A stretch of 64,000 bases of DNA, taken from contig CM060978.1 of NCBI GenBank assembly GCA_030765065.1, forward strand, positions 111,037,192 to 111,101,191. The letters run 5' to 3'. The first letter of the stretch is position 1. Every line of letters begins with the position of its first letter. This document shows positions 17,572 through 41,760 of the stretch, piece by piece. Source of the DNA: Deroplatys truncata (Eukaryota > Arthropoda > Insecta > Mantodea > Mantidae). The position numbers were made by a program, and so were the translations under genes. The notes under the pieces were generated by a model that was not told the DNA's origin, ran no database searches, and saw only the letters and a program-made list of their open reading frames with translations.

Positions 17572-17645
17572 GTTCATTACATTCTGTACACAAATTCGAT
17601 AACCAGATTTCATCTGAATACAAGTAAAGTATTTTTAAAAACAGG

Positions 17646-17699
<54 letters not shown>

Positions 17700-18370: not shown

Positions 18371-18750
18371 AACATTTTTTCGAATGATTTGGACGCTCGT
18401 GCAGCAGATACTAGTGCACGTGCTTGACAAACTTCCTCTTCCACAAAAGAATTGTGAATCAAGTTTATCGCCGTTTGTTACAAAGACTGATCTGTTATTG
18501 TCTCCTTGTCAACAGCAAGTGCGTGGCGCTGCCTACGTCCGCAACAGTGCAGTTGACGGGTTTAAACTGCGAATAGCATGCTCTACAAACAATGCTTCAC
18601 CCAATTGTCCAACAACTGAACAGACTGGTAATAAGAACCATCCTTGTCGTACACCTGTAACTCCTATACAAGAGCCACTAAAATAAATCGGGTATATCTA
18701 ATTATTACATATATTTTTTTCGGTAGTATCGGAAAGTGAATATCTTTTCG

Positions 18751-18885
18751 CTTTCTCTACTACGTATAGTAAGTAGGGGAAGTATTGTATTCCATCCAAA
18801 AATTCCATAGCAATATTTCACCGAAAATATGTTTTGAGGCCCTCTGAACCAAAAAAAAGAAGCATTTTTAGTAAAACACCCGCCC

Positions 18886-18921
<36 letters not shown>

Positions 18922-19588
18922 GAGAGAGAGAGAGAGAACACCATAACTCAAAAACGAAAAATTAAGCTCAGTATCTTCCAAAAATACACGTACATTTTCA
19001 AGAATATCTCCCACCCCTAATTACCATTTCCATGGAATCATTTTTCTAATTTTTTTATTTTCTAAAAATGGTTAACATACCATATACTAAACATATTTAC
19101 ATAAAAATAAAATGTATATCTTGAATTTTCTGGGAATACGCTATGAATACCTCTTCATTCGGAAAGAATTTTGTATAATCTTGAATAGCTCGTATACTTT
19201 AAAAGCGATAGACGAAAGCTGCTACACAAAAATGTAAGCCTCTTTAAAACGCACAATTTATTTTAAATAATTCTCTTTTGGCATAAGTAATTTGCGAAAT
19301 GTGCGTTACTAATATTTCGAACTGATCAATGCTTTCATTCTTACCAAGTCTGTCGATTTTCAGTACTTCATCTCGATGTCATGGAAAGAGTATGGAACTT
19401 TAAGGCCAGCATATAGCGTCCAGTTCTTAAACATCTGACTGTCACTATTCCCTTTGTATCTATAACGAAATGTATAGTGTAGCTAATTCTGCAACGGTTT
19501 ACCTCGATTAAAATGAAGCAGATAGAAAAATATGATTTAGTAAGAAAGTTTGGATACCCACCAGTAAACGACAAAGGGTAGATAAAGT
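18751..19588 (+). repeat. GT-TIR dispersed repeat, copy with (GT)n then (GA)n
   Basis: Begins CTTTCTCTACTACGTATAGT and ends GTAGATAAAGT. It holds GGGAAGTATTGTATTCCATC, a microsatellite that changes from GT (about 18888-18918) to GA (about 18921-18937), and ACCATAACTCAAAAACG. The distal part is related to the 9518-10400 copy. After the tip, both copies share a GTGAGTGT(A/G)ACACAT stretch, so the true end may lie 20-30 bases further on. Confidence 0.75.
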
Positions 19589-19710
19589 AATGTGAGTGTG
19601 ACACATATAATTTTTTTTGGGAATGGCATATGGAGTAAGGTTACTTTAATATACTAATTTATTCTTTTTCTTCCCTTCAATTTTATACCAATGATTTTGT
19701 GATTATTATT

Positions 19711-20092
19711 CATTCATTCATTCATTATCTGATTACCCTCCTCTTATGTAGGACTTACACCCCCCAGGACTTACAAGCGGGTGCCTGGGGTCAGAGGCCT
19801 GTCGAGGAGCAGACACTCATGGATCAGACAGAGCATCCAGGATGGGTGATCAGCCCGATGCCTGGTATGGGATGAAGGAAGTAGATGAAACGAAATGTGG
19901 GTGAAATGGATGAAAGGAAAGGTGATGATGGAGCGTTGGTGAAATGAATGGCGGGGGAAATCGGAGAACCCGGAGAAAACCCGCCCAGACGCCGCTTCGT
20001 CCACCACAAATCCCACATGCAGGTCCCTGGGATTGAACCCGGGCCGCCTCGGTGGGAGGCGAGCGGTCTAACCACTCGGCCACGGCGCCGCC
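19711..20092 (-). mobile_element. tRNA-derived SINE (Ser/Leu-type head) with a 13-bp target duplication
   Basis: Read on the minus strand it starts GGCGGCGCCGTGGCCGAGTG, an A box with a long D-arm as in Ser/Leu tRNAs, and has the B box GGGTTCAATCCC (20029-20040). A body of about 300 bp follows and ends in an AATG-type simple tail. TGTGATTATTATT flanks it at 19698-19710 and 20093-20105, a clear target duplication. RNA polymerase III would transcribe it leftward. The same SINE recurs at 41388-41746. The three overlapping minus-strand frames across it are SINE artefacts. Confidence 0.92.
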
Positions 20093-20639
20093 TGTGATTA
20101 TTATTAATATCGCTTATTCCTCAGTAGGTCATATAGCACAGAGCTGGCACAGCAAATTGCGTTGATATGGAAAAAGACAGGGAAAACGAGGAGAGTTGCT
20201 AGCCTAGAGTGAGGTTAAAGAGCAGTAAATGAATTTTTATGGAAGAGATAGGGAAAAGAGGAGAGGTGCTATGGAGGCTAAGTATTGAAGGTGTTCGAGC
20301 GTAGTTCTGGTAAAAATTTAGCGTTCATTGGTATTGGAAGGGTATGCGCGTGTGCACGTTCGCGGTAGGATATGTTATATTTCGGACACTAGAACATGCA
20401 TTTAAGGCACTTTTGCGAGAATTTTAGGCTTTGGAACAGGTGCTATTAAGCCCTTTTATGCGCATTTGGAGCACCTTTAGGATCATTTTGAGAACTTTTA
20501 TCGAAACTGTGGTCACTGAGATATGTATTTTGAAGGGTTCTCATAGGACTATTCCAGGCGCTTTAAATGTATTCTGCGCTATGTATCAGATATTAGCACA
20601 AACGTTTAGAACATTTTAGACCATGGGCAGAGGAAATTT

Positions 20640-22500
20640 CGTTTTTAAACTATTTAGGAAAATGGCGAAGGTATATTCGTGTTATAAGCTACAGGCTTTA
20701 AGACAGTTTGAAGGTATTTTATGCGATTTAAAAGTATTTTAACACCTTTACAAGAATTTTGATGGCTTCTGGCAGGTGTATTTTGGGTACGTTGAAGGTG
20801 TTTTTAGTCTATGGATTAGGTATTGATACAGAATTTTATGACATTTAGGAACACGGACAGAGGAAATTTCAGGCATTTAAAAAGTATTTTGGAAACTGGA
20901 TGAGGTATTTTAATGATATTAGTACAGGTTTATAGAACATTTCAGGACATTCTGAAGCTATTTTGGGCAATTTCATGGATAATTCAGATATTAACACAAG
21001 TATTTTTGGGCAATTTCATGGGTAATTCTGTTATAAACACAAGTACTTTGGGCAGTTTTAAGGGTATTTATGGTATTAAGACAGATATTTTGGGGGTAAT
21101 GTAATGAATAATTTAGGAATTAACACAGGTATTTGGCCAATTTCATGATTAATTCTGGTATTATCGCAGGTATTTGGGACAAGTTTATGCTCCATTCTGG
21201 TATTAACATAGGTATTTTGGGGTAATTTCATGGGTATAATTGCCTATTATAATTTGTCCTTTGAGGCACTTCCGGCACCATATGTGGTGGGAGAGCTACG
21301 TGGCAACCTTTTGCAAGGAGAGGAACGGGATAGCGAAACGCTACCTGGCGCACTCAGCAACAATGTTGATTCATTATTACATATACACGACTAAATAAAA
21401 CAGCTTTATTACATTGTTAAATAAATAAGAAATCATAAGCTAACGTTCACTCTGCGAAACTACTAATACTACAGTAAAAACAATATTTATTACGGCCATT
21501 ATAATTATATATTTAATTATAGCGTTTCAAGGTGAGATAGCGGGAAAAGGGATGGCCATATGTTATTTGTGAGTAGTATATCTGATAACAGAACAAACAC
21601 TTGATAACAGAACCATATCAACGCATAAGAAACGTCGTAATAAGTCTTGCGCAAAATCCGCTCCATAACAATTTAATGTTCATGTAGTAAAGGTAAAATT
21701 TTAATAACAAATAGTTATAAAATTATAAAAAATAATTTATAAATTCTGTGAACCAAACTGTGACAAAGAGCACGTGCTAAATATTGCACTAAGAAGTGCT
21801 CAAAATCACGACAGAACTCACTGCTGAAAACTAAAGCTTTGTTTCATTCTCGCACACTTGTGCGTATTTCACATAATTATTATTTCTTATAACACTGCCT
21901 ACTGTTTATTATACATTACGTAAAGACCTGGTCTATTTGTTTTACACGTGCATTCATTTCTTCCAGGGCTCACCAGATAAAAACGTAATATATTTTAGTA
22001 CGGGTTAGCGTGTGCCAGCAGTATAAATAAATCCGTAAACATTATAAGTGTTAGGTTATGCTGGAGGTTATAGGGCTTTGCCGGGGGGTGGTGTTGGGCG
22101 GTACTGATGGTGTTTGTCACACACGTAGCTGCAGTGACGTGAACTGACAATGAGCTATCTCAAGGGACAAGTTATAATACGCCGAATAAAATTCAGGTAT
22201 TATTACTGGTATTTTAGAATAATTTCATGGGTAATTCTGATATTAACACAGGCATATTGGAGTAATTTCGTGGGCAATTCTGGATTTAACACAGGTATTT
22301 TAGACAAGTTCATGTGAATTTCGAACATCTACATAGGCATTTCGGATTTCTTTTATGGGTATTCGACGGTATATTTTATTACCTTTATAGGCAATTCGGG
22401 GTACTTTTATGAACGTTTACAGCACTGGAATAGGTATTTAGTATATTCTTTAGACATTTGATAATGTTTTATAGAGATTTTCTATCATATTATATCTCTT
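20640..22500 (+). repeat. Loose tandem repeat of about 43 bp in the left Polinton arm
   Basis: The recurring themes are ATTTTGGG.AATTTCATGGG followed by TAATTCTGGTATTAACACAGG. The clearest units are at about 20950-21240 and 22190-22320. Units vary in length and are heavily diverged. The array is split by the 919-bp element at 21253-22171. The same array, inverted, lies at about 36400-37280. Confidence 0.75.
21253..22171. mobile_element. Nonautonomous TIR element inside the Polinton array
   Basis: The left tip is TTTGTCCTTTGAGG. The right tip read on the other strand is CTTGTCCCTTGAGA. Both are flanked by TTATAA (21247-21252 and 22172-22177), which looks like the target duplication. The Polinton tandem repeat is interrupted exactly here and resumes afterward, supporting an insertion. 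There is no open frame of note. The TIRs are short (about 14 bp) and the superfamily is not assigned. Confidence 0.6.
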
Positions 22501-23294
22501 TTGTGATGTTCTGCAGTAATTTCTCTCGTTTTAGTCATATTGACTAGCTTTATGAGCGTCTGTATATTCTAACGTTAACATGCGATAAACCACATATGGG
22601 TAACAGATTTTCTAAGAGATATAGAACTAGCCTAATCTAACCCATCCTGTGTTTTAAGAGATGATATAATTTTATTCAGCTTTGATGTTTTCAAGTGGTT
22701 ACATTTTTGGGGGGCTACGCGTGGAAGACATTTCAGATTTATTTAGCTTTATATTAAGTTAATCGGCGTTTCATTAGATAAGGATTGTAAGGGTAGGCGC
22801 TTCTCCGCTTTATTTGGACTTGAGACCAGCACAAGATTTTGCTCCTAGTGAAACAGTTAACACTTTTTATATATTCTTATTCGTCCTTCTACATCAGACG
22901 TCTGCTAGGTGTATGGTCAGCTTTTGTGTAAACTTCCATTTTATAATTGTAGACTTACGGAGAAAATCCATCATCTGCAATGACTCTTTTATCATCCTAA
23001 GGTGTCAACGGAATTTTATTCACTTCTGGGTACTGACGTAAGAATATCTGCCGTGGCAAGATTAAATTCATCGGTATTCTTATTATTTCATTGGTTTTAA
23101 GGCAGTCCACCTAACTATCAACGGTGATGTCCTGCTTAATGGCACTACTTCTCATTCATATCTTTAATTATTTTTATCACAGAACCATTGGTATTTAGTG
23201 CACACACTTTAAGTTATAGTCCGATAAACCGATGGATGACTTTAGCATTAGCCCAGTGGCGTGCGATGTGTGACAGTATTTTATACCACAACAC

Positions 23295-24098
23295 TGTAAA
23301 TGCCAGAGTGATTGTAGTGTAAATTAGCATTATTGTATGACAATGATTTGGGATGTTTGTTAATTATAAGCATTGTTAGGAAATAAATTTACACGGCCTC
23401 ACTGAAACTGACAATAGGAGCGGGTAACAATGAAGCGAGTTGTTTATCAATTAGAAGAGACAAACAAACGACGTCAGAGTAGCGTGCCTTTCTTTAGAAA
23501 TGGAGGGAATATCTTCCCTAGGGCATATGTGTTCGTGATTTTGATTGGATATAAAAATAGACGCTAATGTTGGCGCGTTTTATTAACCAATAGCAGCTCT
23601 GTTATAATGTTTAGGCATATCGGGGTGAGGGAGTATAAAAAGCTAAAGCCAGAGACGAGTAACGCTCAGTTCAACAGAATCAGTCAAGGGTTACACGTCG
23701 CGCAGTTTAACAGAATCATTCACGATGTACAACGTTACGCAATTCTCAGAATCTGTTGCGTCGTAAAGCTAGTTATAAAATGTGAAATACGCGAATTAAT
23801 AATGTGCGGCAAATAAGTGATTATAGTTACATTCGAAAATATAACAGTTTCAGTCGGGTGTGTATGAAGAGATAAATATCAGAAATTAATGAAGTATGAC
23901 GGCAATAAAAGTGAAACAACAAATTCTTTTATCAGCGTTATCTTTTAGTAACAACTCCTTTCCGTTTACACACCCTGTTTAAGAGATTTGCTCGACTGTG
24001 TAATAATAGCTAGCCGGAGGACAAAGAACCCAAAAATTCAAAATAGTAAAACAATAACAGGCGCTCAGCAATAAGATAACACGAAAGTTACCGCGACA
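23295..24098 (+). repeat. 5' LTR of element A
   Basis: Begins TGTAAATGCCAGAG and ends ACCGCGACA, so TG...CA. Inside are a TATA box (GAGTATAAAAAG, about 23630) and a polyadenylation signal (AATAAAAG, about 23912). About two copies of a unit of roughly 34-38 bp with AACAGAATC and TTACACGTCG lie downstream of the TATA box. It is about 804 bp long. The boundaries are confirmed by the independent copy at 50323-51160. Confidence 0.85.
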
Positions 24099-24101
24099 AA
24101 T

Positions 24102-24121
24102 TGGCTCCCAGAACGTGGGGC
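24102..24121 (+). other. Primer-binding site of element A
   Basis: TGGCTCCCAGAACGTGGGGC follows the LTR after three bases. It is close to the element B site TGGCGCCCAACGTGGGGC and to tRNA-Lys-type sites of gypsy-like elements. The tRNA identity is inferred. Confidence 0.65.
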
Positions 24122-24454
24122 GAAATAACCAGGAAGGGACATTAGAACCAGAACGTGGAGCGAATGGAGCAGTGTAATTAACTACAAGACGCAGATTCCA
24201 GAAACAACCACCAGAACGACTGACGACGCGGATGAGTGGACATCAATAACTACGAGAATAGAAGGCAACAGGGAAATTCGACTACAGGACACCAAGACAG
24301 CGAGACGACGCAGATCCATCGTAGTACGACGCAGAGGCGAATATACATCTAGAAGAGAGGGGCAGGAAGCTGGACATCAAAGCAACATCGTCAGATAGCA
24401 TAATAAAGTTTAGAAAATTGTAAATTTACCTGTAAAAACAAAAAACAACAAAAA

Positions 24455-25522
24455 ATGTTGTTGAGAAGTGTTAGGATTAAGAAAACAATGTCCACTAATA
24501 ATACTGAAGAAATAATTATGGAAGGGGATAATGTAACAGTTAGCTGTAATTCAATACAGGTTACAGAAAATAGCTCAAACAATGTAGGATTTGAGGGAGG
24601 AAATATTAGTGAAGAAAGTGAGAATAGAATAGCAGGAAATGTTAATTTTGATGCTGGTATGATGATGGAAATGCTGAGAAATATTGGTGAAGCATTAAAT
24701 AAGACTATTATAGACCAAGTAGAAAATAATAGGTAATTGAGGGAAGGTATGGATAAGAGAATTGAGAAATTAGAGCAAAAATCAGATCAATTAAGGTAAG
24801 ATATTGATTGGAGTTTAGAACAAAAACTAACTCAGAGTAGTGAGAAATTAGAAAAACTAACTCAGAATATGGAAAAGAATAATAGGGAATTGAGGGAAGA
24901 TATTGGTAAGACCTTAGAACAAAACAGGGAAGAAATTGAAAAGAAATTTATGGAGCTAGATAGTAGTATGATAAGAATGAGAAATGAAAATCAGGAAATA
25001 ATCGCAAGAGAGATAGGAAAAGTTTCAAAGAAAATGTCAGATATGAGCAGGGAAATATCTAACCAAAAAAGCGAGGTTAATAATAAAATTGAACATGTTG
25101 ATGTAAAATGTACAGAGTTAGGTAGCCGAATGAATAGCATTTCAAGTGAGCTAAGAGAGATGAATGAGGCTACGAATGCAGATTTAAATCAGGCGCAAGT
25201 TAATTTCAGAGGGGAGATATCTGAAATTCAGAAGGAGTCGAAAACATAAAGAAATAAGTTGTCTGAAGAAGTTAAAGTTTTGTCTATAAATTTGGATCAA
25301 AAACTAATTTCTGAAATTAACAAGCACCAAGTTGTTCTAAATGAAAATTCCAATCCAGTACAGTTTATTGCAGACTTGTCAGAGTACTTTCAAATTAAAA
25401 AGATGCAGGAAGAAATGAAAATGATAGTTGTTAAAATATGTGTGGTTCAGAAAAATTTAGATTGGTTTCAAATGCTATCAGGGGGTGAAATTTCATATGA
25501 ATCTTTAAGAGGCTATTCATGA
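24455..25522 (+). pseudogene. gag-like region of element A
   Basis: The first part is rich in Glu/Lys/Asn heptads (for example EKIEK-like and EISEIQKE runs), predicting a long coiled coil. A capsid-like block with FIADLSEYFQIKKMQEEMKM then aligns by eye with FLEQLQEYFRLTNVPEGLKM of element B, so the two elements are relatives. The region is broken and is treated as a fossil. Confidence 0.7.
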
Positions 25523-25954
25523 ACAGATTTTGGAAGGTTACGATACAGCTATGAGTAATGCTTAGCCATAGACAATTTGATCCAGGAGAGGGAATAGCAA
25601 TGACCGCTTAAAAAAATAAAGTTGAAAAGTAAATTCAGGATTAATAAAGCTGAACTGCAGAACAAAGTATTGGGATGTAAGAGGATTAACTATGTATATA
25701 TGTCATAAGAAAGGAGAAATAAATTCAGGACAAAAATAAATGTTTAAAGGGGTAAAGATAATTAAAGCAAAACACTTATGTAGCACACAGATAATATGAA
25801 ATTATGTGTAGAATTAAGAGATGTAAATATATTTGTGTAGAGGATGAATATTTTGGTAAATGTGTTCAATAATTACATGATGAACCAGGTTAGAAATCTT
25901 GAGTGTATAAATTTCTATGTCAATAACCTAAGAAAGTATAACCATTTTGTAACG
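25523..25954. other. AT-rich remainder between gag A and element B
   Basis: Noncoding as far as I can see. It may be the end of element A or the far side of the hAT relic that continues beyond element B. AACG at 25951-25954 is the left target duplication of element B. Confidence 0.4.
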
Positions 25955-26627
25955 TGAGACAGAATGTGCCGGAATTAATTTTATTATGTACTAATTTATT
26001 CAGTGTTCAATTTAATCTATAAATTATATAAGTGTACAATGTGAAAACAATGTAAATAGTAATTTTTGTATAATGTAATATTTGTCGTGTACATAATGTT
26101 CCTGTTTCACTAGGTTTAGAATGTCTTGAAAGCTGCAGTTAGGATAGAAACATGCTGTTTCCAGGTGCAGCTAAAACGGTATCTTTTGTGTAAGAAAATA
26201 AAGGTAAAGGTTTTATGACTCTGTTTGTTTCCGCTCCGGATGTATGGAGCGAGGCAAATATTATAACGGCAGTTTTACCGTTGACTTTTAGTAGAGGACC
26301 GTCCACAGTGTAAGACAGTTGAGTTGAGTTCACAGTACAGTTGAGAAGACGGTACTCAGGGGAAGACAGTGGTAATATGTGAACAGGAACAGTATGTAGT
26401 GTTAGAGGGAGGAAGTAATAATAAATAGTCCTAAAGCAAACGTTCCAGTGTGTAATCAATTCCTCTATAAGCTCCCATTGCCACAACTGAGATCGACGAG
26501 CTTATCAAATGTCATGATAGGCAGAGTCCATGCAGACATCACCGCTGAGATCCATCTAGCCAGGGTAACAGCGAGAAGGACTACAAGACGAAGCCACGTC
26601 GAAACAATAGGCAGGGATACCGACGCA
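25955..26627 (+). repeat. 5' LTR of element B
   Basis: Starts at TG and ends at CA. Its 673 bases match the 3' LTR almost throughout. The antisense frame of 115 residues present in both LTRs is incidental. Confidence 0.93.
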
Positions 26628-26631
26628 TAAA

Positions 26632-26649
26632 TGGCGCCCAACGTGGGGC
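26632..26649 (+). other. Primer-binding site of element B
   Basis: TGGCGCCCAACGTGGGGC lies four bases after the 5' LTR. The TGGCGCC start is typical of tRNA-Lys-primed gypsy-like elements. The exact tRNA is inferred. Confidence 0.75.
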
Positions 26650-27028
26650 CTGAATGGAGCAAATGAGGAGAGAATAGGAATCATCAAAAAGGAATTAGGA
26701 GACGCGGGAAAGAAAGAAGATTACACCAAGACAGCAAGCAGAGGAGAGGAGCACAGCGAAGACAGCGTGAAGCGAAAAGAAGAATCTTGTGGAAATATTT
26801 AGTGCAGTGTTGTGATATGTGCAGAGTAGTGAATGTGCCTTAGGAAGGAAGGGGCATAAAATTAAGAAAAGAAAATCATATCAAGAGAATAAAAACCGCT
26901 ACAATATACTACAAGAAGAAAGAAAGAACAAAAAAAAGGTCAGATTAATATTCATGTTAAATTGTAAATCTAGTAATAGTGCTATATAATCTATATTATT
27001 ACGTAATAATAAGGTAATACGTAGGAAA

Positions 27029-29164
27029 ATGTCTGATAAGGGTGAGAATTTTGAGAAAAGTCAGGAGGATAGGGAGAGATATTCAGAACCTGATATGGAA
27101 GTTGGATACGATCAAACGGAAGTAGTAAATATGCCCTTGAGTAGCATTTCTACAGAGGTGAATTTAGATGAAAGCCCAGATGATAGGTTCAGTGACCCAC
27201 TTTCAAACCTAAACATTCAGAGAAACTCCAGTCCAGAGCAGGTAGATAGAGTAGATGTCAGTCAGGTAGAAAATAATGCTCAACCCTCCACACAAAACTT
27301 AGAAGAGAGTAATTTCGAGATACTTATGTTCATGATGAAGCAAATAAGTAGTGAAATGAAAGACATTAAAGGGGAAATAAATCAGAAATTTAGTAGTGAA
27401 ATGAAAGATATTAAAGAGGAAATAAGTCAGAAATTGAGTGGGGAAATGAAGCAACTAAATCAGAAAATTGACAAGCAAAGTAGCGAGCTTCAGAACTTAA
27501 GAGGGGAAATCAACCAAAAGGTGAACCAAGAAATATGTGAAATGAAAGAGAGGCTTAAAGGACAAATGGAAACAATTAATATTAAAATCCAAGGAGAAGT
27601 TAATCAGGTTAGAAAGGAAGCTAAACATAGGGAAAGCAAAATATCTAAAGAAATAGGGAAACAATCAGAAAGGGTAGATAAACTAATGTCGAAACAAGAA
27701 GTAGAGATAAATAAAGTTAGGGAGGAAGTAAATAAAATGCATGTAAATATTACCAATAGTGTAAAACAGGTGGAAGAAAAGATAAGTGCTCAACAGGTAG
27801 AAAATATGCAGGGGTGGAATGATAAATTCCATTCAGTTCGTGAGGAAATATGTGAGAAAATGCATAGTACTAATGATGGGATTTTAAGTCAAGTAAAAGA
27901 TATAAATGACAAGTTGGCAGAGGAAATTAAGAAACAGAATGCAAATTGTCAGAACACACAAAAAGCTGTTGATGTGTTACTACATAAAATTAATAGTATG
28001 CATGTAAATAATAACAGTAGTTCTATGAACAATAATGTCTCCAATGTATTTATTAGTGAAGGTAATGGACGTAGAGAAACCTCTTCTGTATTTTCCAACA
28101 ATGTTAGTGAAGTAACAGGGGGTGCCATTCAAAGTTCTGAATCTAACAATGTAATTTCAGGGACCTTAGGTCAAACAATAGATTCCGGTATGCAATCTTA
28201 TAATAGCAACGTGTTGAGTGACCTACCTCTACCTACTTTTTCGGACGCCAATGATGACTCACCAATTTACTTCCTAGAGCAATTACAAGAATACTTTAGA
28301 CTTACAAATGTTCCAGAGGGATTAAAGATGATGATAACTCGAAAATGCGTGGACCGACATACTTTGAATTGGATAATGATCGCGATGGGTCCTGAAAATA
28401 ATTTTGAATATTTTAAACATCTGTTCCTCAATAGATATTGGAGCGCGAGCAAACAACAAGAATTAAGAGTAAAACTGTGCTATGGTTACTATTCTCCCAG
28501 AGAAAATATCAGCATGGCAGATTACCTTTTGCATAATGCAAGGTATATTAAATACTTAAGACCTCCTGTACCGGAAGTAGATCTCATGGATATGATGGCA
28601 AAGCATTTTCCAATTCATATTCAACGTTCTTTGTTGGTTGCGAAGCCTAAAACGTTAATTGAAATGGTAGACCTAATTTCTGCATTAGAAAGTCAAGAAA
28701 CTGAATCTTCAAATTATTGGGAAAATACGCAACATAACTCGACCTTCAGCCGAAACAATAATCACCAAGAACGTAGGAGACAATCAGGGAGAGAAAACAG
28801 ACCTCGTAACAGATATGAAACTCAGATCCCTCAGTTCCAGCATGGAAATCGAGTAGATAACCGAAGAGATCGCCATGAACGCATAAACTTCATGCAATTC
28901 GAGAATAGATTTTCTCCAAGGCAAAGATTTCGTGGCCGAAACGAATTTTCACACAATTCAAGGGGGCATACAAATAACTGGAGATCTGGATACAATGGAT
29001 ATCATTCCGATGGTGAAAGATCAAATAGATCAATACGAACAACAAACAACCGTGGAAGAATGCAACCAGTTCAAAATCAACGTGATGGCAGACAGGAAAT
29101 CACAGTAGCACCTGTTCAAAATGGCCGCCCTCACATGGATAGTAATACCAGTCAGTTAAACTAG
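27029..29164 (+). CDS. gag-like protein of LTR element B (711 residues, open)
   Basis: A single long frame starts with MSDKGENFEKSQEDRER. Residues about 95-330 are Glu/Lys/Gln-rich with recurring units such as SSEMKDIKGEINQKF, which predict a long coiled coil. Residues about 395-560 form a capsid-like block. LPLPTFSDANDDSPIYFLEQ opens it, then LNWIMIAMG, LFLNRYWSASKQQELRVKL and a leucine-rich stretch ending LISALESQE, in the style of the retrotransposon gag family. Residues about 565-705 are basic and rich in Arg, Asn and Gly (NRPRNRYE, FRGRNEF, NNRGRM). No CCHC zinc knuckle is visible, so nucleic acid binding probably relies on the Arg-rich tail. Known gag proteins form the particle that packages element RNA. 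The frame lies about 400 bases after the primer-binding site. Confidence 0.85.
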   Translation: MSDKGENFEKSQEDRERYSEPDMEVGYDQTEVVNMPLSSISTEVNLDESPDDRFSDPLSNLNIQRNSSPEQVDRVDVSQVENNAQPSTQNLEESNFEILMFMMKQISSEMKDIKGEINQKFSSEMKDIKEEISQKLSGEMKQLNQKIDKQSSELQNLRGEINQKVNQEICEMKERLKGQMETINIKIQGEVNQVRKEAKHRESKISKEIGKQSERVDKLMSKQEVEINKVREEVNKMHVNITNSVKQVEEKISAQQVENMQGWNDKFHSVREEICEKMHSTNDGILSQVKDINDKLAEEIKKQNANCQNTQKAVDVLLHKINSMHVNNNSSSMNNNVSNVFISEGNGRRETSSVFSNNVSEVTGGAIQSSESNNVISGTLGQTIDSGMQSYNSNVLSDLPLPTFSDANDDSPIYFLEQLQEYFRLTNVPEGLKMMITRKCVDRHTLNWIMIAMGPENNFEYFKHLFLNRYWSASKQQELRVKLCYGYYSPRENISMADYLLHNARYIKYLRPPVPEVDLMDMMAKHFPIHIQRSLLVAKPKTLIEMVDLISALESQETESSNYWENTQHNSTFSRNNNHQERRRQSGRENRPRNRYETQIPQFQHGNRVDNRRDRHERINFMQFENRFSPRQRFRGRNEFSHNSRGHTNNWRSGYNGYHSDGERSNRSIRTTNNRGRMQPVQNQRDGRQEITVAPVQNGRPHMDSNTSQLN

Positions 29165-29175
29165 ATTGTGACGTA

Positions 29176-29848
29176 ATGGTTAGGGATCACAGAGGCGTCA
29201 CACAGAATTTCTTAGAGGAATATAGAATTAAGATTGATTTTGAAAAGCATAGTGCTTTTATTCAAAAGGAACATCGCATTTTAAGTGCTCCTTTCATTAA
29301 GAAACAAATTATTCCAATTGAACGCACGCCTGAAGAAATGGAACTTGTTGACTCGGAACTCTTCGTACAGAAAATAATGATTGACAACCCGAGATAGTAA
29401 GTATGCGTACTGTAGAAGGAAACGGACAGAGAGACCTGTTTATTCAGGAAGGGACAGCTATACCGACCGAGCTCCAGGTAGTAAGCCCAGGTATAACCCA
29501 GCAACGGGAGAAAGAAAGAGACAAAAGGAAGAAATTCTTCAGAAATGCAACGATGTCAATGGCCTGAACAATAAACAGCAAGAAATTTAGTGGAATATTC
29601 AGAGTGGTGATAAAGTACTATTACGTAATAAATCGTTGTGGAATAAAATAAAGAAGGAAAACCAAAGATTGATGATCTATTACAAGGGACCGTATGAAGT
29701 CATCAAGAAATTTGGTACGGATACTGTTGAAATTGCTGATATTAAAAATGGAAGAAGCTTAGGAAGATTTCATAAAACCTTGTTGAAGAAATATAAACAA
29801 CCATCGGAAGAGCAACAACTAAAGAAAATAGAGGAAAATGAAAAGTAA
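29176..29848 (+). pseudogene. pol remnant of element B, including an integrase-tail-like piece
   Basis: A short piece just after gag (EYRIKIDFEKHSAF) resembles the region at the start of pol. A later piece has MIYYKGPYEVIKKFGTDTVE, like the GPY/F module at the C-terminus of gypsy-type integrases. The reverse transcriptase, RNase H and integrase catalytic motifs are not seen. It is treated as a fossil remnant. Confidence 0.7.
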
Positions 29849-30355
29849 CGGGTAGAAAAGAAAGAAGAAAGACCAGCAAATGAGAAGTAAAACTGAAAGC
29901 CAGTTAGGTATAATACGGTTGCTCAACTAGGTTGCAAACTAGGGTTGAAATGGTTGTAAATAAAAATAAAATTGCTTAACATTGTATTGTATATAAAATA
30001 GAATATTAGGGATATTGAATATAATATAAATTTATAATAAATATATTGATTATATTACTTGTTACTTATATAGACATGTTAAAATCTAGTATTAGTGTAA
30101 CGTGACACAGAAAAGGAAATCAATAAGTGTTATTTGGGGCGAGAAATAAATGTCAGAGGTATTAAGTTGTGAATAAAGAACAATGTGTGTGTGTGAAATA
30201 CTAGAAATGTCAAAAGGAATGCTGTATGGATGATGAAGTAAAATATTTTGTATTAAAATTAAAATATAAATGTCTAGCTTAGGAAGGAATCGTTAGAATG
30301 TAAAGAAAGAAACAACGATTTAAAATTTTCTTTAACATTCACGATTGGGGCATTA

Positions 30356-31028
30356 TGAGACAGAATGTGCCGGAATTAATTTTATTATGTACTAATTTAT
30401 TCAGTGTTCAATTTAATCTATAAATTATATAAGTGTACAATGTGAAAACAATGTAAATAGTAATTTTTGTATAATGTAATATTTGTCGTGTACATAATGT
30501 TCCTGTTTCACTAGGTTTAGAATGTCTTGAAAGCTGCAGTTAGGATAGAAACATGCTGTTTCCAGGTGCAGCTAAAACGGTATCTTTTGTGTAAGAAAAT
30601 AAAGGTAAAGGTTTTATGACTCTGTTTGTTTCCGCTCCGGATGTATGGAGCGAGGCAAATATTATAACGGCAGTTTTACCGTTGACTTTTAGTAGAGGAC
30701 CGTCCACAGTGTAAGACAGTTGAGTTGAGTTCACAGTACAGTTGAGAAGACAGTACTCAGGGGAAGACAGTGGTAATATGTGAACAGGAACAGCATGTAG
30801 TGTTAGAGGGAGGAAGTAATAATAAATAGTCCTAAAGCAAACGTTCCAGTGTGTAATCAATTCCTCTATAAGCTCCCATTGCCACAACTGAGATCGACGA
30901 GCTTATCAAATGTCATGATAGGCAGAGTCCATGCAAACATCACCGCTGAGATCCATCTAGCCAGGGTAACAGCGAGAAGGACTACAAGACGAAGCCACGT
31001 CGAAACAATAGGCAGGGATACCGACGCA
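30356..31028 (+). repeat. 3' LTR of element B
   Basis: The same 673 bp as the 5' LTR, with about three substitutions noticed. It is preceded by a weak purine patch (GATTGGGG) and followed by AACG. Confidence 0.93.
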
Positions 31029-31079
31029 AACGATGACCTAAAATAGTTCAGGGTACAGTATTTGCTATAAAAATTGTAA

Positions 31080-32811
31080 TGTCAGATGTATGTATATAAA
31101 CACATTAGACCCGAGCCAGTGAATAGTGGCGAGAAAAAGGCAAGATGTATAACATGTGTTAAATGCGTGTGCAGTGTTAAGTGCAAGTGATAAATACCGT
31201 GTGTTACAGGATTCAGGAGACTAAAGATACTTGAATAAAAGAAATGGTCTCTTTCACTTTCGCAATGCAATAATTTACATGAAAGGTCTTTGTCTGGAGA
31301 ATAATGAATAATGCATTAAAGAACCAAAAGTACGAGTGAAAATTTCCAACCGAAAGTAAAGTCGAGATTCTTCAACGATGCTAAATATTCTTTGCCACAA
31401 ATAAAAGTGTCACTATCCCAGGAGTCTAGGTCATCAACAATATGATTAAAACATGAGGTAAGTTCTGTTATTTTCATGCACCGTGTTCACAATCCTAGAG
31501 TTGTAATTGCAACACGTAAGTAACGCCGATGGAAACATCTTCTTGACTTCGGTGGGTTCAGTGTATTTACACGGTTTGTTGAATTAGAAAAAAATGAACA
31601 AAAACCACTAAATGTCTTGAAAAATATTTTACATTGTTTTATCAATTGCACTCATGCGATAAAACTAAGTTAGTTGATGAGCACAGCAGTGGACTGATAG
31701 CGCACTGGAAAATCTTTTCTTCACTTGTGCTTGCAAATCATTTAAATAACCAGAAAATGTTGCAGCCCATATATCCTTGAGCTACGAACCTGTTCTCCGA
31801 CTCACAATTAAAGTCTTTAGGAGTTTTATATACAGGTTCAATTAACACAATGTAAGCGATTATGCTGAGATCTGTAAAGCCTAAAAATCTCTGAGTTTCA
31901 CCCTAGTTTACTTAAAGAATGGCATTGGAGAGTTAAGGTAATTTTACAACTTGCGTCGTTTCGTCCAGCATTAAAACACTAAAAGGTACACATTTTACTT
32001 CTTTCCTTACTATGTTTAGCATTACGTGACTAGAACTTAAGATAATGTAATTTTAAATTCGATTTGACGTTCCTTTGAAAACTTGTAACTTTGGAAGTGT
32101 GTGTCTAATTTGATATCATACTTGGATAGCATGTGCAACAACTCAGTATATTTTGCCGATTAAGGCATTCATCATGCTTGCCATGACCTCTGCAAGGTAG
32201 CTCTTGCTTTGCCAGTAGCAAAATTACAGCGGTTAATCGCTTCATTATTTCTCTATCAGAGTCAACTCCCGCATTGTGTTTCAAAATATCCGACCTGCAT
32301 TGCTCACTTAGTAGAAGGTCTATGCTTGTTTTACCAAAATATTTAAGTTTTGGTATTACAGATAAGTGTGATTGCCGCTTCTCATGTCGAATATTTGCTT
32401 TGTGAAAATTTCTGATACCAGAGAAACCTACACTATTCCATACTCTAGCGGTTTGGAAAAGAATACAAGACCAGACAATAAATTTGTTTTAGATCTACAT
32501 GCAGTTAGCCATTTTGAAGAATTGTAGTATTCAATTTTGAAATGGCGTACATAGATTTTCATTTATGTACTCATAGAAACGTCCGGAGTAGGTCTGCCAC
32601 TTACTATAATGTCTACCATTTCCTGAAATATTAAAACCCCGAATGAAGTATCGGTACTTAACAAATGATTCAAAACACATTGAGTCTGTTGGCAGGCATG
32701 ACTGGCTGCGCTGCCGGATGAGAATTCGTTTGATGAGAAATGCAGAGAACACAAATCCTGAACCGAGTCCCCTTCCATATTTGCTAAACAGCGTAAAACG
32801 GACAATACCAT
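31080..32811 (-). pseudogene. ZMYM1-like hAT transposase relic (DUF4371 type)
   Basis: Reading leftward: a possible N-terminal frame starts at ATG 32811 (MVLSVLRCLANMEGDSVQ). A TTF-like zinc-finger zone follows (NLLSGLVLF-like, then GIRNFHKANIRHEK). Next comes a block with CRSDILKHNAGVDSDREIM and ELLHMLSKYDIKLDTHF. The catalytic-domain signature is VAQGYMG near 31770, with LNDLQAQVKKRF and SALSVHCCAH at about 31680-31740, matching the family pattern GQGYDGA ... VQ ... VHC.AH. Further left come NYNSRIVNTVHENNRTYL and NYCIAKVKETI. Many stops and frame changes mean that it is dead. The family includes ordinary hAT transposons and host genes derived from them. Here the nesting and the decay favour a transposon. 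No TIRs were found; element B may have split its downstream end. Confidence 0.75.
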
Positions 32812-33189
32812 TTTAATCCGCTTGACACTTCAAACGTAAATTTTCAATACTTAACTCATAATATACTAAAACAATAAAGGCACTAACATGTTTTTCTAAC
32901 TAAAATGAATACACAGAAGTTGTTAACAGCGAACACCCGACCGTGAGCTACTTTTATCGTGGAACTTTAAACTTTAACGAGGAATACATACATTGCAGCT
33001 AGCACTAGGCCAGCTGATTTATTGTTGCTGGCGGCAAGAGGGGTGGAGTGTTGGCTGGATGAATGCAAAGGTACAGGAGCTGAACAAAAGAAAAACCGAT
33101 TTATGTTATGTCTTTTATAGCTAAAACATGAAATTTAATACTGTTTACATATGAGCTCATGATACTTAGGGGATAGCTTAGTCCCACTA
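32812..33189. other. Noncoding flank between the hAT relic and polB
   Basis: Probably the 5' part of the hAT element. The boundary with Polinton sequence is near 33190, where reading on the minus strand leaves polB. No TIR pair was identified. Confidence 0.35.
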
Positions 33190-33369
33190 GTCCATTGACC
33201 GCACACCAATTGCATTAGCCTCATTTTTAACTTTCCTAAAACGCCCTCGTTTTGAGTCAAGTGACATATATAGCTTGCAGGGTAATCAGCCGTATCTAGA
33301 TGCTCAAAAAACCGCAGCTTCTCCTGTTATACATCCGTAGTTCTCACTAGATGGACAAATTAAGTTAAA

Positions 33370-33655
33370 ATTAAATTGACTTTTATTTATGGACGGTCTG
33401 TAGTCCTTAGCATCCCATTCTATATTGGGCGTGAAAGACAGTTATTTTGCCCAGAGGCCTCTTTATCATGCTTGAGGTTCTTTTACGTGCCGTACATCTA
33501 CGACACGGGATCATTGGCTTTACTTCCCTTCCGAAGGAAGCCATGCTAAAGATTTTTGCCCCCGAAAAAATTCATCGCCCTCCACCGGGTTTGAACCCGC
33601 GACCTCGGTAACTAGAGGCTAGCATGGTAACCACTACACCTCGACGGACGAAACT
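33370..33655 (-). mobile_element. tRNA-derived SINE inserted in the left polB relic
   Basis: On the minus strand the head CGTCGAGGTGTAGTGGTTAC is followed by the B box CGCGGGTTCAAACCCG. A body then has GGCTTCCTTCGGAAGGGAAG and TAAAAGAACCTCAAGC, and the sequence ends near 33370 in an A/T-rich tail. GTCCATCGAG and GTCCATCTAG lie on its two sides and look like a slightly worn target duplication. PolB-like sequence continues on both sides, as comparison with the right Polinton copy shows. Confidence 0.85.
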
Positions 33656-34314
33656 CGATGGACGGAGGAGTCTGTATCCATATGCATAAACTTCAGATTT
33701 TCAGCTCCATAATACCACAACACATTGTAATAATAACGGTACCTTAATGTCTTAAGAGATGTCCAACACACTCATCGTGATGTATTATGGACTTTTTGAA
33801 CACAATCCGTCGTGGGGCCACATGTATAGGAGCTAAATTAGGTCCATATATAGTTCTGTCGATGAATGTAGGTTTAGCAATCAGCTTTTCCAGATTCTTC
33901 TCACTAGTAAGCAATCGTATGCCCATCCATTTACGTAAGTTCTCCATGGTTATTTCTAACATCGAATTTTTAAAAAGTTTGAACACAGCTTTCTCGAAAT
34001 TATTTGAAGTCTATTATCGTAGTCGGTTATTAAAATCCGACGAACGGTTTTAACCATTGTGACTGTAGGAATTTCAGCAAACAATGGACTTTCCTAAGAC
34101 TTAATTTATGACTAAGAGCTTGCTTCAAGGCCATGTATTGCACTGCATAATACTGCATGATGAGAAATTACCTTCTTTGTAGACGATATCTTAGGGATCA
34201 GGCACTCAGGTAGGAATGTTAGATCGCTGTGCAGGTAGTGGATCTTCACAGGATATTGAGTATGGACTTCTAATAAATATCCATGAGTATATGATTACAC
34301 ATATCCACATATCC

Positions 34315-34317
<3 letters not shown>

Positions 34318-34350
<33 letters not shown>
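34318..34350. repeat. (TA)n microsatellite inside the polB relic
   Basis: About 16 AT dinucleotides, flanked on both sides by TATCCA/TCCATGAG-type sequence. It lies in the left Polinton copy close to the head-to-head junction. Confidence 0.9.
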
Positions 34351-34351
<1 letters not shown>

Positions 34352-34436
34352 ATGAGTTCACCTTTTAGTGTTTCTAGATTGAAATCTTGAAGAGAAACCC
34401 AATCAAATCCGTCATAAGGGAGGGCATGGCACATTG

Positions 34437-35620
34437 TCTTGAAACAAGGTCTTTGCAATGGACTACGTCTGAGGAAATTCCATTGTTGCTGCAATTCCAA
34501 CAGTCGCAATGGTTAAAACCTTATGTCGATTTTAACAACCGGCTACGATAACAGGTTGAAAATTATTTCGAGAAGGACCTGTAGAAACTTTTCAACAATG
34601 CAATGATCGGATTAACCATGGAGAACCTACATAATTGAATGGATATATTGTCGAAACCTCCTTTATAATCACTCCATTACGGGGTTAGAGCACAGGACCG
34701 GAATCTAAAGAATCACATCGCACTTTCCTAACACGGCGTTCGACGGGGGCAAGCTAACAAAATACTTATAACGCCTGAAAACCACCAAAATATTATTAAA
34801 TCATCACGGACAGGAAGGAAGGGACCACCTACATAAATAATTAACATAGTATGAAGTTAGATGTCAAATATATTATATCAAATAAAAGTGATAGAGATTA
34901 CCTTTGTTTGGCGAAGCGCCATGCCTGACACACGTCTTGCTCTACGCACTAGCAAGGCTCAAAGCGGAAGAGAGCTACTTCCTATCTCAAGATGAAACCT
35001 GTTAACCTCCCCTTCTATGTCACTACCTGTTTACATTGCCAACCTAAGAGTTGACCATACAGTGTTACCACAGCACATATTCTTACAGTGTTACCACAAC
35101 CACATGCCACAATATATATGGCTACAGGTAGGAAGAACCTGGAAAGGCTGATTGCTAAACCTACATTCATCGATATAACTATATATGTACCTAAGCTAGC
35201 TCCTGTACATATGACCTCACGACGGATTGTGTTCAGCAAGTCTATATACACCAGGATGAGTGTGTTGGACATCTCTAAGACATTTATGTACCAATCCATT
35301 ATGATGTGCTGTCGTATTATGGAGCTAAAAATCGGAAGTGTGTGTATATAGATACTGATTCCTTCATCCATCGAGTAACAACTAGACATGTACACCAGGA
35401 CAATCGTTGTTTTCTTGAGAATCTAGATACAGCTGATTACCCTGCAAGCTAAATACGTTACTCTGCACAAAACAGGAAGGTTTTATGAAAATTTAAAGAT
35501 GAGGTTATTGGAAAACCCAGCCACCGTTTTATCGGATTCCGACATGAGACGTATGCACTGGATATTCATGGCTCTGTGAATGTTAAAGGTATAAAACGTA
35601 GCGCAATGAAGCAGTGCATC
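34437..35620 (+). pseudogene. Polinton DNA polymerase B relic, right copy
   Basis: It carries SQWLKPYVDFNNRLR, then KNLERLIAKPTF, SVLDISKTFMYQ, the motif C core DTDSFIHR and a C-terminal block with HRFIGFRHETYALDIHG. These are family B polymerase palm and thumb features as found in Polintons. There is no N-terminal exonuclease part in this copy. It is a fossil with several breaks. Confidence 0.85.
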
Positions 35621-36389
35621 ACCCTTTATGCTATGCGGACTGCCTTATAACCAATGAAATAATAAGAATACGGATGAATTTTATCCTCTCACGGAAGCAT
35701 ACTCTCACGCCAATAAAGTGAATAAATTTACGTTGGTATCTTAAGATGATAAATAGTCATTGCACAGGATGGAGTATCAGCATATTCATATTTACATTAT
35801 AGCGTTGGAAACGGTGCTTAAGACCTTAAGAGGTGTCTTCGACCTCAAGATAATGATTTTTTCGTGATCTACAATTATACAATGGAGGTTTACACAAGTG
35901 CTGCGCATAGAGCTAGTAGGGGTGTGATGAAGAATGACGAATAGGAATAAGAAGATAGAAAAGGAAGACGTTAACTGTGCCACAGGGAACAAATTTTAAT
36001 TATGGTCCCAAGTCCATATAAAGAGGAGAGGCGCCTACTCTTACAATCCTTTTGTAATTAAACAACACTATATAAAGTTGAAAGGTCTCCACGCGTAGTC
36101 CCCCCGAAGAATGTAACCACGTAAAAAGATCAGGGTTGAATAAGACGTTATATCCCTTATAATGCAGGATGGGTTAGTTTAAACTAATTCCATATATATC
36201 TTAGAAATACTATTACCGATATACTTTATCGCGTGTTAGCATTAGAATATACAGAAGCTCATAAAAAGATTCAATACGACTGTAAAACGAGAGAAATTAC
36301 TGCAAAACATTACACAATTTGTATAATACGGGAGAAAACATCAATAGAGTGTCTGAAATGTATGTTAAATACCTCTTTCTGTGCTTAAA

Positions 36390-37290
36390 ATGGTCATAAA
36401 AGTACCCCGAAATGCCTACAAAAAGTAGCCAAAAATACTGTCAAAGTACCCTGAAATACCATAAAAGAAGCGGAAAATACCATGTCCGAAATGCCCATGA
36501 ACTTTTCTAAAATACCTATATCAATACAAGACATACCCACAAATTGTATAAAATATGTGTTAATGCTACAATTACCCTGAAGTTGCCACAAAATACCTGT
36601 GTTAATACCAGAATTGCCCGTGGAATTATTCCAAAATACCTATACTGATATCATGAAATTTTGCGAAATTATCTGTGTTAACACTAGAATTACCCATAAA
36701 ATACCTCCAAATTACCTGAGTTAATACCGGAAATACTTGCTTTAATACCAGAATTACGCATAAAAATGCCCAAAATACCTGTGTTAATTCCTGAATTACG
36801 CACGAAATTGCCCCTGAATACTGTGTTAATACTAGAATTTACCACGAAATTACCCCAAAATACTTGTATTAATGTTTGAATTACCCATGAAATTGCCCAA
36901 AATACTTTCATAATATCCTGCAGTATTCAAAAAACGGAATGGTCCAAAAATGTTCTAAAATACCATTAAAATACTTACACTAGTTTCCAAAATGCATTTG
37001 AAATGATTTAATACGCCTGAAATTTCTTCTACTCGTGTTCCTAAGTATCCTAAAAGTCTGTGCCAAACCTAATTCATATCCCAAAATACCTTCAAAGAGT
37101 CCAAAATACTCCTACTTGAAGCTTCAAAAGGTCTATAAAGGTGATAAAATACTTTAGAACAACATAAAATATCTTCAAAATGTCCTAAATCCTGTACCAA
37201 TACCATTAATATACCTGCTCTCCAATTTCCTAAATACGTTTGAAATATCTGAAATTTTCCCTGCCGGTGTTCCAAAATGTTCTAAAAGCC
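36390..37290 (-). repeat. Loose tandem repeat of about 43 bp in the right Polinton arm
   Basis: On the minus strand units recur with AATTTC.TGGGTAATTC and TATTAACACAGGTATTTTGG, the same theme as at 20640-22500. About 8-10 worn units are discernible. Confidence 0.75.
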
Positions 37291-37745
37291 TGTGCTAATA
37301 CTGATCCATAGCGCAGAATACATTTAAGGCACTTGAAATAGCCCTATGAGAACCCTTCAAAATATGTATGTCAGTGACCGAGATACTGATAAAAGTTCCC
37401 AAAATTATACTAAAATTACTCCATATGCCCGTAACAGTGCTTCATAGCACCTGTTCCAACACCTAAAATGCTTGTAAAAGTGCCTTAAATGAGTGTTTCA
37501 GTGTCCAAAGTAGAACATATCCTACCGGGAACGGGCCTACCCCTACCCCTACCCCTCCTTCTCCAATGAATACTAAATTGTTCCCAGAACCACCCTCGAA
37601 CACCTTCAACCCGTAGCCTCCATAGCACCTCTCCAATTTCCCTATCTCTTCCATATAAACTCATTTACTACCATTCAACCATACCCCAACCTAGCATCTC
37701 TCCTCACTTTCCCTGTCCGCTCCGCTGCCCCAGCTCTGTCTTATA

Positions 37746-40700
37746 TAACATACTCTCTTCCAGTAGATTTAGTGCTCTCCTCCAATAGATTTAGCAGACA
37801 TACCTTCGGCTACTTTCGAATTCCTATTAAGAAGCAAAAGGATCTTCCTTCTCTTCTACTACGGGAGCGCGTATAAAATGCGCAAATTTTAACGCCAATA
37901 ATTTAAATATAAGCTATACGTAACAGATATGAGAAGTCTTGCACTCTATGTTCACCAGGAAGAGTGGGAGTTTTTAATGGCAAAGGAGTTATCAAAATCG
38001 TTTGCGCTTTCCGAGAGAATCCTTCGACCAAATAAAAATTCTCTCTATAGTTAGGTATAGATCTATTATCAAGCGTTATCAAGCGGAAATTGAAAAACAA
38101 AGCATTGAAATACAGACAGCTGAGCATCAACTGCGATAATTTAATTTATGGCTGTTTTGCATTGACAGGCGACCTTGATTGTTTGAAAGTGAAACTAGTT
38201 TAAACTTGGTAAGCTTAAGATCAACTACCAAATAGAATTTTATGCCCGTACTTACTATGTCTGTTCCGGGTGCTAGCACCTAAATATGCGAGACTTTGTA
38301 GCAGCGGTCGCAGATATAGCAAATCCAATTGAAGAATGGAAGACAAAAGAACTTGAAAATAAGATGAATAAATAAATTCATCTACTAACATAGTATACCA
38401 CTTCCAGGATATATACACCAAGCCAGTATTTCCAGTACAGAACTGACGGCGCCAAAGGGGTTAACCGGCGAAATTTTAAAGAGCAAAATAATTGTGAGCC
38501 ACTTGCAGGAATTAGTTCAAGTGACAAGTGCATTTTTTCCAATGGAATTTCTGGCAAAGTGCCATGACAATACAAAGATTCCAAAGGTGACGTCATACAT
38601 AATTTTCTAATATATTTCCTAATGGATGTTTTAATAGTATCTGAGCGTATGGAACTGCAAGTAGCCTATATTTTGAGTTTAAGATGTATAAAAACTTCGG
38701 GGAAGAAAATGCATTTGATTGTCTGTGTGATGGTAATAAACCTCCATAAAATTTTCGAAAGCACATTCCATTTCTCTGACTGTGTACTTCATGGGCTCAT
38801 TTATTTCAATATTAGCCAATCTAATTCACAGCCCGTGTCAAATTTGAACCAGTCGCGGTGGATTATCACTGAAATATTGTCAAAATGAGATTGTCACACG
38901 TGAATCCCAATTGCCTAGAATTTCCTGCATCTGATTTAGCAATTATTTTTGCCTTGTACGCTAAAGAAATCCAGAAAGTTTTTTTAAAATAAGAATTATG
39001 TAGAAAACCATGTTTTGGTATGGTATTGGTATGCAATAACATGATTCAGTAAGATTCAATTCAATAATCCGACATGAATTACCTATATTACTTAATCTGA
39101 TTAATATTTTTATTAAACATTTCATTGAGTAAATGTTTTAGCAAATACCACGCATAGTTACATCTTGTTCGGATGAATTCGACAATATCAAAACACTCGT
39201 GATTTTATTGTTTATAATTACTTCAGTTCCGGCAATCATCGAGCTCGTTGTTACTAGATTGTAACGACGTTACAATGAAATTATAGTGATAATCAATAAC
39301 ATGCTATTTAAAAATTAATACATTATTTTTATTGCTTACGTTCTTATGTTTTATCACCATTCTTCGTGCTTTGATTCGATTTCGGAGTAAGATAAAATAC
39401 ATTTGCTTGTATTGGCATTTCATATTTTGTTAAAGCCTCTAATTTTTAGTTGGTATTAAAATATTTGAATTTGATATATAACTTAAACGAGGTAAAACCC
39501 AATTAAATTGTGTAGTTTTTGTTAAAAAAGTAGGAATACAAGGTCACTGCCAAGGTGACTTTTATTGCGTAATAAGGTACAATGCAGAATGGCACATTCT
39601 CACATTGTAATTATTACACCGAATACAACTCATAAAAAGGGGTACTTCTTATATATCCCTTTTACTTATAAGTTCATATTAATTTCCATATTTCAAAAGT
39701 TAAATTTCATTAGGCATAACCAAATCACAGGAAAACCACAATCTCTGTATTGTCGACAAAAAGAATATGGCCTGCAGAACTGCATAATAATCTAGGTGCT
39801 CCATTTTAGTACTAACATTATTACACTTGGCTTCACAGCAGTGTTGTACATTCCAATTCCTATATGTCACTCTTATAATATCATGTAATGTGGATATAAA
39901 TCCTAGTTCCTATGCCTTGTAATTGTAGGATTAGAAACGAGCTTTTATACAACGAAACATGAGGAACAAGAAAGAAACAACGTTATTAATAATTTCTGAT
40001 AAACTACTGCGCTACGCCAGACATTACCTGCATACTGACCTAACCGATCTGTGCACTTTCGTTCCCTAAACCGCTTTTGCACTGTATTGAGCTTTCATCT
40101 TATAGGTAAATTAGGTCTCAGCGAAAGAGAGATACACATCCGCTTCTCAGCAGGGTGGCGGAAATGCCCTCGTTCCACGAGTTAGAAAAATATGCAACAC
40201 ATTACTCCGACCAGCGGCAAGTAAATACAGAAATGAAACTATGCCAACTGTCGGTCAGAGAGGAAGAGAGAGAGAGAGAGAGTAAGCGTAAATCACATTT
40301 TACCCCATGCCGACAATCTATGGCAGTTATCGGCACCACAAATTCTGGTCCCTTTAGTAAGCCCATATGGCGAGTTCACCTTCTTAGCTTTGTCACAAAA
40401 TTGCACAAAAATTGGTAAGGGAGAATAACGTAAAATTATACGTCACGCTAAAGGGCATAGCCACTGTTTTGATACTTTATTTGCCTACACGTGTCACATA
40501 GCAGTAGTAGATTGTATAAAAGACTCACGGTTCGGGATTCCCTTGTACCCTCCCCTAATGGACAGCCCTGCGCAGTATTCTGGTTTTATACTAGCGGGGA
40601 AGATCAAACTATCAGCTGATTGGAACCGTTGTATTGTTTTTTCAGTCGCCTGTTCAATCTACACAGAATACAATGTATATGGAATTACGAGAAACAAAAG

Positions 40701-41746: not shown

Positions 41747-41760
41747 TTCAGTTCTCTCTA

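Follow-up and report, generated by a model that had tools for sequence, protein, structure and literature searches.

A palindrome built from two decayed copies of one and the same end of a Polinton (Maverick), a large virus-like transposon, lies in a 64,000-nucleotide stretch of the genome of the mantis Deroplatys truncata (GenBank assembly GCA_030765065.1, contig CM060978.1, positions 111,037,192 to 111,101,191 of the forward strand). The whole stretch is here termed the window, and its first letter is position 1. It is eukaryotic-nuclear-like DNA dense in mobile elements, with one stop-to-stop frame of at least 150 codons and many diverged repeats. Comparison of the window with itself reveals two inverted arms, 20123-34434 and 34431-37754, which are about 80% alike, and each carries a relic of a DNA polymerase gene (polB). 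The evidence is from this one locus, and the polymerase reference is one distant relative, the contig L001 described below.

The inverted head-to-head geometry is real. An initial annotation, made from the letters alone, had proposed inverted similarity between 20128-23290 and 35600-37745, with the same non-coding arm outward of each polymerase relic, and both proposals are borne out. Inverted matches found by blastn of the window against itself pair 20176-21134 with 37717-36731 (E 0.0), 22190-22976 with 36615-35848 (E 1e-112), 22967-23238 with 35773-35518, 33210-33355 with 35513-35367, 33653-33900 with 35376-35132, and 33923-34136 with 34642-34431 (78%). In pairwise alignments, gaps left out, the two outer pieces are 79.8% (20123-21174 and 37754-36700) and 78.5% identical (22190-23253 and 36615-35503). 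Values for two further pieces are 76.0% (33210-33355 and 35513-35367) and 84.2% (33653-33915 and 35376-35118). The mirrored pieces, summed by hand, come to about 2.8 kb per arm. A nested insert of about 10 kb interrupts the left arm, so that the palindrome originally measured about 6 kb.

The polymerase reference was picked up by a scan for degenerate palm motifs. L001 is a viral contig of 17.4 kb from IMG/VR, in which an open reading frame of 1,299 residues lies beside an rve integrase (PF00665, E 6.7e-8). We take this reading frame to be a protein-primed polB, on the strength of its palm motifs and of the rve neighbour. Searches of Pfam, PHROGs and PDB with it gave no polymerase name. A polymerase together with an rve integrase is described as the universal signature of Polintons (PMC4642659). 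Two degenerate-motif scans of viral contigs both yielded L001 and no other contig, and with 431 residues of its polymerase as the query only the source itself was matched. An AlphaFold model of these 431 residues has a mean predicted local distance difference test score (pLDDT) of 31.7 and was not used. As a separate observation, residues 546-600 of the L001 polymerase, N-terminal to the palm, resemble endonuclease VII (PF02945, E 0.0012, below the cut-off), and residues 549-605 match PHROG 2914 (E 1.2e-4).

With the L001 polymerase as the tblastn query, the left relic matches on the minus strand, at E 2.6e-18 when five pieces are summed and 9e-17 when three are; the right relic matches on the plus strand, at E 3.2e-16 and 3.4e-11. 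These are the only two places in the window with E below 1, the next match being at E 1.1, and the relics are thus on opposite strands, as first proposed. The right copy was also said to lack the N-terminal part of the polymerase. It does, starting near reference residue 988, but so does the left copy, which starts at residue 885. Used as a single query, the L001 integrase gives no tblastn match in the window up to E 1. The locus therefore counts as a deleted derivative rather than a full Polinton member; loss of the integrase is expected of such a structure. Two further L001 open reading frames of at least 80 amino acids gave a best E of only 0.089 against the window; capsid genes were not sought. 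At the level of protein families, no polymerase family was found in Pfam (nine relic pieces), PHROGs (two pieces) or NCBIfam (four pieces), and the sole Pfam match of a relic piece is NCC-H (E 0.015, below its cut-off). The pieces, of 45-98 residues, are probably too short and decayed for family searches. A PDB sequence search with one relic piece gave no match. Peptide patterns picked out 1 and 114 stretches in viral contigs and 61 in genome contigs as candidate relatives of the relics, and tblastn confirmed none of them.

The two arms meet at a joint that has no spacer, as initially described. Its position is not 34436/34437, as was then given, but 34431-34434, where four bases can be assigned to either arm, and a part of the left copy (34137-34430) has no mirror image and forms a loop. 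The loop is 294 bp in length and contains a 12-bp direct repeat at 34277 and 34346; tblastn with the L001 polymerase assigns part of it to reference residues 915-958. The left relic extends to a methionine that corresponds to residue 885 of the reference. There its terminal 14 residues score 30, with 14 for the next best offset; the 12 residues that would lie before these score -16, and nothing upstream fits. The start of the right relic near residue 988 is from a frame-tolerant alignment. When fold-back junctions are placed at random within the inner left arm, 2.1% of them share at least 4 bases (P 0.021). One terminus present at both ends of the palindrome, together with a short unmatched loop, is a trait of snapback genomes, and it is found here.

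Such a joint could also have arisen from ordinary insertion and deletion, which would suffice if two related Polintons had inserted nearby in opposite orientation, with their polB genes facing, and a deletion had then run between points in both genes. A 4-bp overlap is also usual at deletion joints, and an imperfect target duplication would be in keeping with this history. Both breakpoints, however, would have to fall within about 300 bp of the same place, for which a rough hand estimate, based on the length of 13-25 kb given for vertebrate Mavericks (PMC8097293), is a few percent. Alternatively, terminal repeats may have grown by end-to-end copying until they included the end of polB, after which an internal deletion removed the middle and one polB flank. 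The length of terminal repeats is indeed not fixed, and is given as 46 to 1,447 bp in intact vertebrate Mavericks (PMC8097293). This history needs two events, though, and about 2.8 kb is about twice the longest repeat reported in that survey; moreover, the joint is asymmetric and lies within 300 bp of where the repeated part ends, which is what one would expect of a single fold-back. Growth of terminal repeats is accordingly regarded as rather improbable. Insertion of one Polinton into another was considered and rejected, because on its inner side the right arm ends within polB and not at a terminus.

At the outer ends, local alignment of the arms moves the limits from 20128 and 37745, as originally given, to 20123 and 37754. 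There the similarity stops, on both sides, at a Maverick-like AGTA terminus. Identity between the arms is 24 of 30 bases just inside the termini versus 7 of 30 just outside. The flanks are unrelated: when 1.5 kb outside each terminus is aligned in inverted orientation the score is 43, and 60 shuffles give a mean of 41 and a maximum of 63. The commonest start of vertebrate Mavericks is AGT twice, and intact copies are reported to have 6-bp target duplications (PMC8097293). Inverted terminal repeats with a conserved end motif, a Polinton/Maverick trait, are thus present, and the repeat here is the whole palindrome. A repeat that is SINE-like by eye (short interspersed element) occurs at 19716-20093 and 41387-41747, with 90% identity, and its first copy ends about 30 bp before the left terminus of the palindrome.

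These termini bear on the question of whether the fold-back took place in the chromosome after insertion, with a broken chromosome end inside polB that folded on itself before being copied, a mechanism put forward for inverted duplications in humans (PMC3907307). The joint anatomy is the same in that there is an unduplicated spacer, and an overlap of 2-8 bp is described at 13 of the 21 sequenced joints (PMC3907307). The two shared stop codons discussed below could mean that the element was already decayed. Yet copying should run into the flank, and here the mirrored sequence goes no further than the AGTA terminus at either end, with unrelated flanks; in addition, the 294-bp loop is shorter than the 766-70,466 bp spacers given for all 21 joints (PMC3907307). 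A chromosomal origin is distinctly unlikely because the flanks are not mirrored.

Divergence between the arms is similar in coding and non-coding parts. The mismatch fraction is 0.20 and 0.22 in the outer pieces and 0.16 to 0.24 in the polB pieces. By codon position, polB mismatches are 51:49:55 of 247/248/246 sites with the right-arm frames (chi-square P 0.83), 41:28:43 of 194/193/193 with the left-arm frames (P 0.17) and 32:22:32 of 155/156/154 where both frames agree (P 0.31); frames were assigned by hand from open pieces, and those of the two arms disagree at 89 columns. The third-position excess is 0.02 (95% interval -0.04 to 0.09) with the right-arm frames and 0.04 (-0.02 to 0.11) with the left-arm frames. 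In the 246 codons compared between the arms there are 30 silent differences and 101 residue changes. Most of the divergence looks unconstrained. As polB has no third-position excess, the arms separated about when constraint ended, or later. The same lack of excess is the ground for rejecting two long-separated active lineages as the source of the arms, and it would require that two independently inserted Polintons were nearly identical when constraint ended. Two insertions followed by a deletion keep an appreciable but minor chance. An origin of both arms from one molecule agrees with the codon pattern and with two stop codons at the same residues; this comparison is between the two arms of one locus.

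Coordinates of the palindrome, its parts and the one-sided stretches are collected in Table 1.

Table 1. Features of the palindromic Polinton derivative and its surroundings (window positions)
Feature	Position	Strand	Basis or remark
Candidate left target-site duplication TTCCTC	20117..20122		4/6 versus CTCTTC
Left terminus AGTAGG	20123..20128	+	Arm alignment starts exactly here; 5/6 to (AGT)2 Maverick end motif
Left outer arm: non-coding terminal part with 42-43 bp minisatellite, then end of polB	20123..23253	-	Mirror of 35503-37754
Left-only stretch, about 950 bp, inside minisatellite	21238..22189		No mirror in right arm
Nested insert, 9,958 bp, holding an element of long terminal repeat (LTR) type	23254..33211		9-bp direct repeat GCATTAGCC at 23245-23253 and 33212-33220
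Left inner arm: polB relic, reference residues ~885-1193 with gaps	33212..34434	-	tblastn with L001 polymerase and frame-tolerant alignment
Left-only stretch, about 296 bp, SINE-like by eye, between ACTAGATGGAC and ACTCGATGGAC (10/11)	33357..33652		Absent from right arm
Loop: polB in left copy only, (AT)n run at 34318-34349	34137..34430	-	Inverted similarity ends 34136 / 34431
Joint; ACAT assignable to either arm	34431..34434		Read from alignments
Right polB relic, reference residues ~988-1295 (end approximate)	34431..35800	+	tblastn with L001 polymerase and alignment
Right-only stretch, about 470 bp, ATATAT on both sides	34648..35117		No mirror in left arm
Right outer arm: non-coding terminal part, minisatellite at 36487-36906	35800..37754	+	Mirror of left outer arm
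Right terminus CATACT (AGTATG on other strand)	37749..37754	-	Alignment stops exactly here; 4/6 to (AGT)2
Candidate right target-site duplication CTCTTC	37755..37760		4/6 versus left candidate TTCCTC

The arms also have separate later histories. Four large one-sided stretches were found, each private to one arm, and the right arm is continuous at the place that matches the nested insert. The 9-mer at the ends of this insert occurs at least twice in 10 of 100 shuffles of the window, but here its copies sit at the break in mirror symmetry. For the two stretches bordered by direct repeats, the simplest account is insertion after the palindrome had formed. Some one-sided stretches could be losses in the other arm; that within the minisatellite could be a left-arm insertion or a right-arm loss. 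These differences matter for the reading of the palindrome as an assembly or library artefact, produced by a chimeric read or by an adapter-less hairpin. Inverted joints do arise as artefacts, but the arms would then be near-identical. Here about every fifth base differs, and the two arms have one-sided stretches of their own, of which two are bordered by direct repeats. With diverged arms and private insertions, an artefact is very unlikely and can almost be dismissed.

The nested insert contains a young LTR-type element at 25955-31028, whose 673-bp direct repeats are 99.6% identical and have TG...CA ends. The sequence TGGCGCCCA after the first repeat is a possible primer site, and AACG is found on both sides of the element. 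Its one long open reading frame (26990-29164, 724 amino acids) has Pfam matches that are all below cut-off, the best being Apolipoprotein (E 2.8e-6), with no reverse transcriptase among the families listed. A direct repeat of about 0.9 kb, 84% identical, is present at 23274-24136, near the left end of the nested insert, and at 50302-51196. Elsewhere in the window, a diverged repeat family is found in both orientations at 9513-10109, 13748-14194, 17627-18184, 18745-19592 and 55602-56387. An Rfam tRNA match at 62047-62120 on the minus strand (37.7 bits) is possibly a tRNA-derived repeat; it is not reported by ARAGORN, which found no tRNA gene in the window.

The locus is best explained as an integrated, now dead, palindromic Polinton derivative. 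We lean towards the view that a snapback Polinton molecule formed before integration and was inserted as one unit. One fold-back on a free linear copy explains together the inverted arms, the loop, the overlap, the similar coding and non-coding divergence and the exact termini. The proposed sequence begins with a linear element being copied, the growing 3′ end of which, then inside polB, would fold back. Helped by the 4-base overlap, this end would resume on the complementary strand about 300 bases away, and copying would run outward to the same terminus. This would yield a linear DNA some 6 kb long that finishes in the polB-side terminus on either side, and the integrase of the element, acting in trans, may have inserted it into the chromosome as one palindromic unit. 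Insertions and long unconstrained decay would afterwards have marked each arm separately. The initial annotation had preferred a fold-back joint, perhaps from a protein-primed replication intermediate, to two chance insertions. A fold-back fits best, given the inverted pair, the short loop, the overlap, the lack of third-position excess and a mirror that ends at termini. We infer the copying error before integration, the snapback priming by a protein-primed polymerase and the insertion as one unit.

Several observations weigh against this explanation. The candidate 6-bp target duplication is not clean, with 4 of 6 bases alike, a score equalled by 4.8% of random pairs of 6-mers from the window. 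In addition, polB points outward here, and the gene modules of vertebrate Mavericks are described as generally pointing to the centre, the cane toad being a reported exception (PMC8097293). With the left-arm frames, second codon positions differ least (0.145 versus 0.21-0.22), and some past constraint is possible. In the region common to both arms, two of the in-frame stops (five left, six right) coincide, at residues 1029 (TAA in both) and 1277 (TAG / TAA). The chance of at least two coincident stops is 0.005 to 0.04, for 246 to 80 codons at risk. None of the nine left and seven right frameshifts coincide. Thus polB may have been damaged before the arms separated, though most lesions are private. 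Such early damage fits a defective element mobilized in trans, but also a later event. Finally, that the arms are each other's nearest relatives is an assumption, the comparison covering the two arms of this locus.

Polinton replication, and the existence of Polintons as free linear DNA, are known mainly by inference. A fold-back error during copying of a free linear element would be expected to leave a fossil of this kind, in which one terminus occurs twice and the mirror symmetry goes no further than the termini. Should there be other copies, fold-back could be tested from genome sequences alone by means of their joints and target duplications, and it would become evident that a molecule whose two ends are identical is acceptable to the integrase. 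This raises the question of whether Polintons make satellite-like palindromic snapback genomes, whose twin polB-side termini would permit replication and integration in trans despite a dead polymerase. We regard this as a bold and rather unlikely extension. If it is true, genomes would hold families of such palindromes, and their joints would record the sites at which the polymerase turned back. Among the matches listed in a search of open-licence literature, no title or abstract start describes a palindromic or head-to-head Polinton, which is a weak negative.

Comparison with known systems reveals partial likenesses. The locus resembles Polintons/Mavericks (Polintoviricetes) in its polB relics, homologous to a polymerase encoded beside an rve integrase, in a terminus near the (AGT)2 end motif and in its repeated non-coding ends. 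It differs from them in having the polB-side terminus at both ends and two polB copies that stand head to head and read outward. With the chromosomal fold-back inverted duplications it shares a central unduplicated spacer and an inverted overlap of a few bases, as described for 13 of 21 joints, but its mirror ends at transposon termini and its loop is shorter (PMC3907307). The inverted linears of yeast origin-dependent inverted-repeat amplification (ODIRA) also arise by template switching, which yields a molecule copied into an inverted palindrome that can recombine with the chromosome; by that account, a resident chromosomal origin is required and transposon ends are not involved (PMC10766183). 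Linear plasmids are treated as relatives of Polintons (PMC11071308). One of these, kalilo, is a mitochondrial plasmid of Neurospora and is likened here by title alone: a deletion derivative that forms hairpin and duplex DNA (Vierula and Bertrand, 1992, cited in PMC11071308). Adeno-associated virus is a parvovirus and is not protein-primed, and its snapback subgenomes are seen in virus particles, whereas here there is a chromosomal fossil alone. These subgenomes are nevertheless similar in form, being self-complementary defective genomes that keep one terminus, are symmetric or looped, and stand head to head as dimers (PMC8235507).

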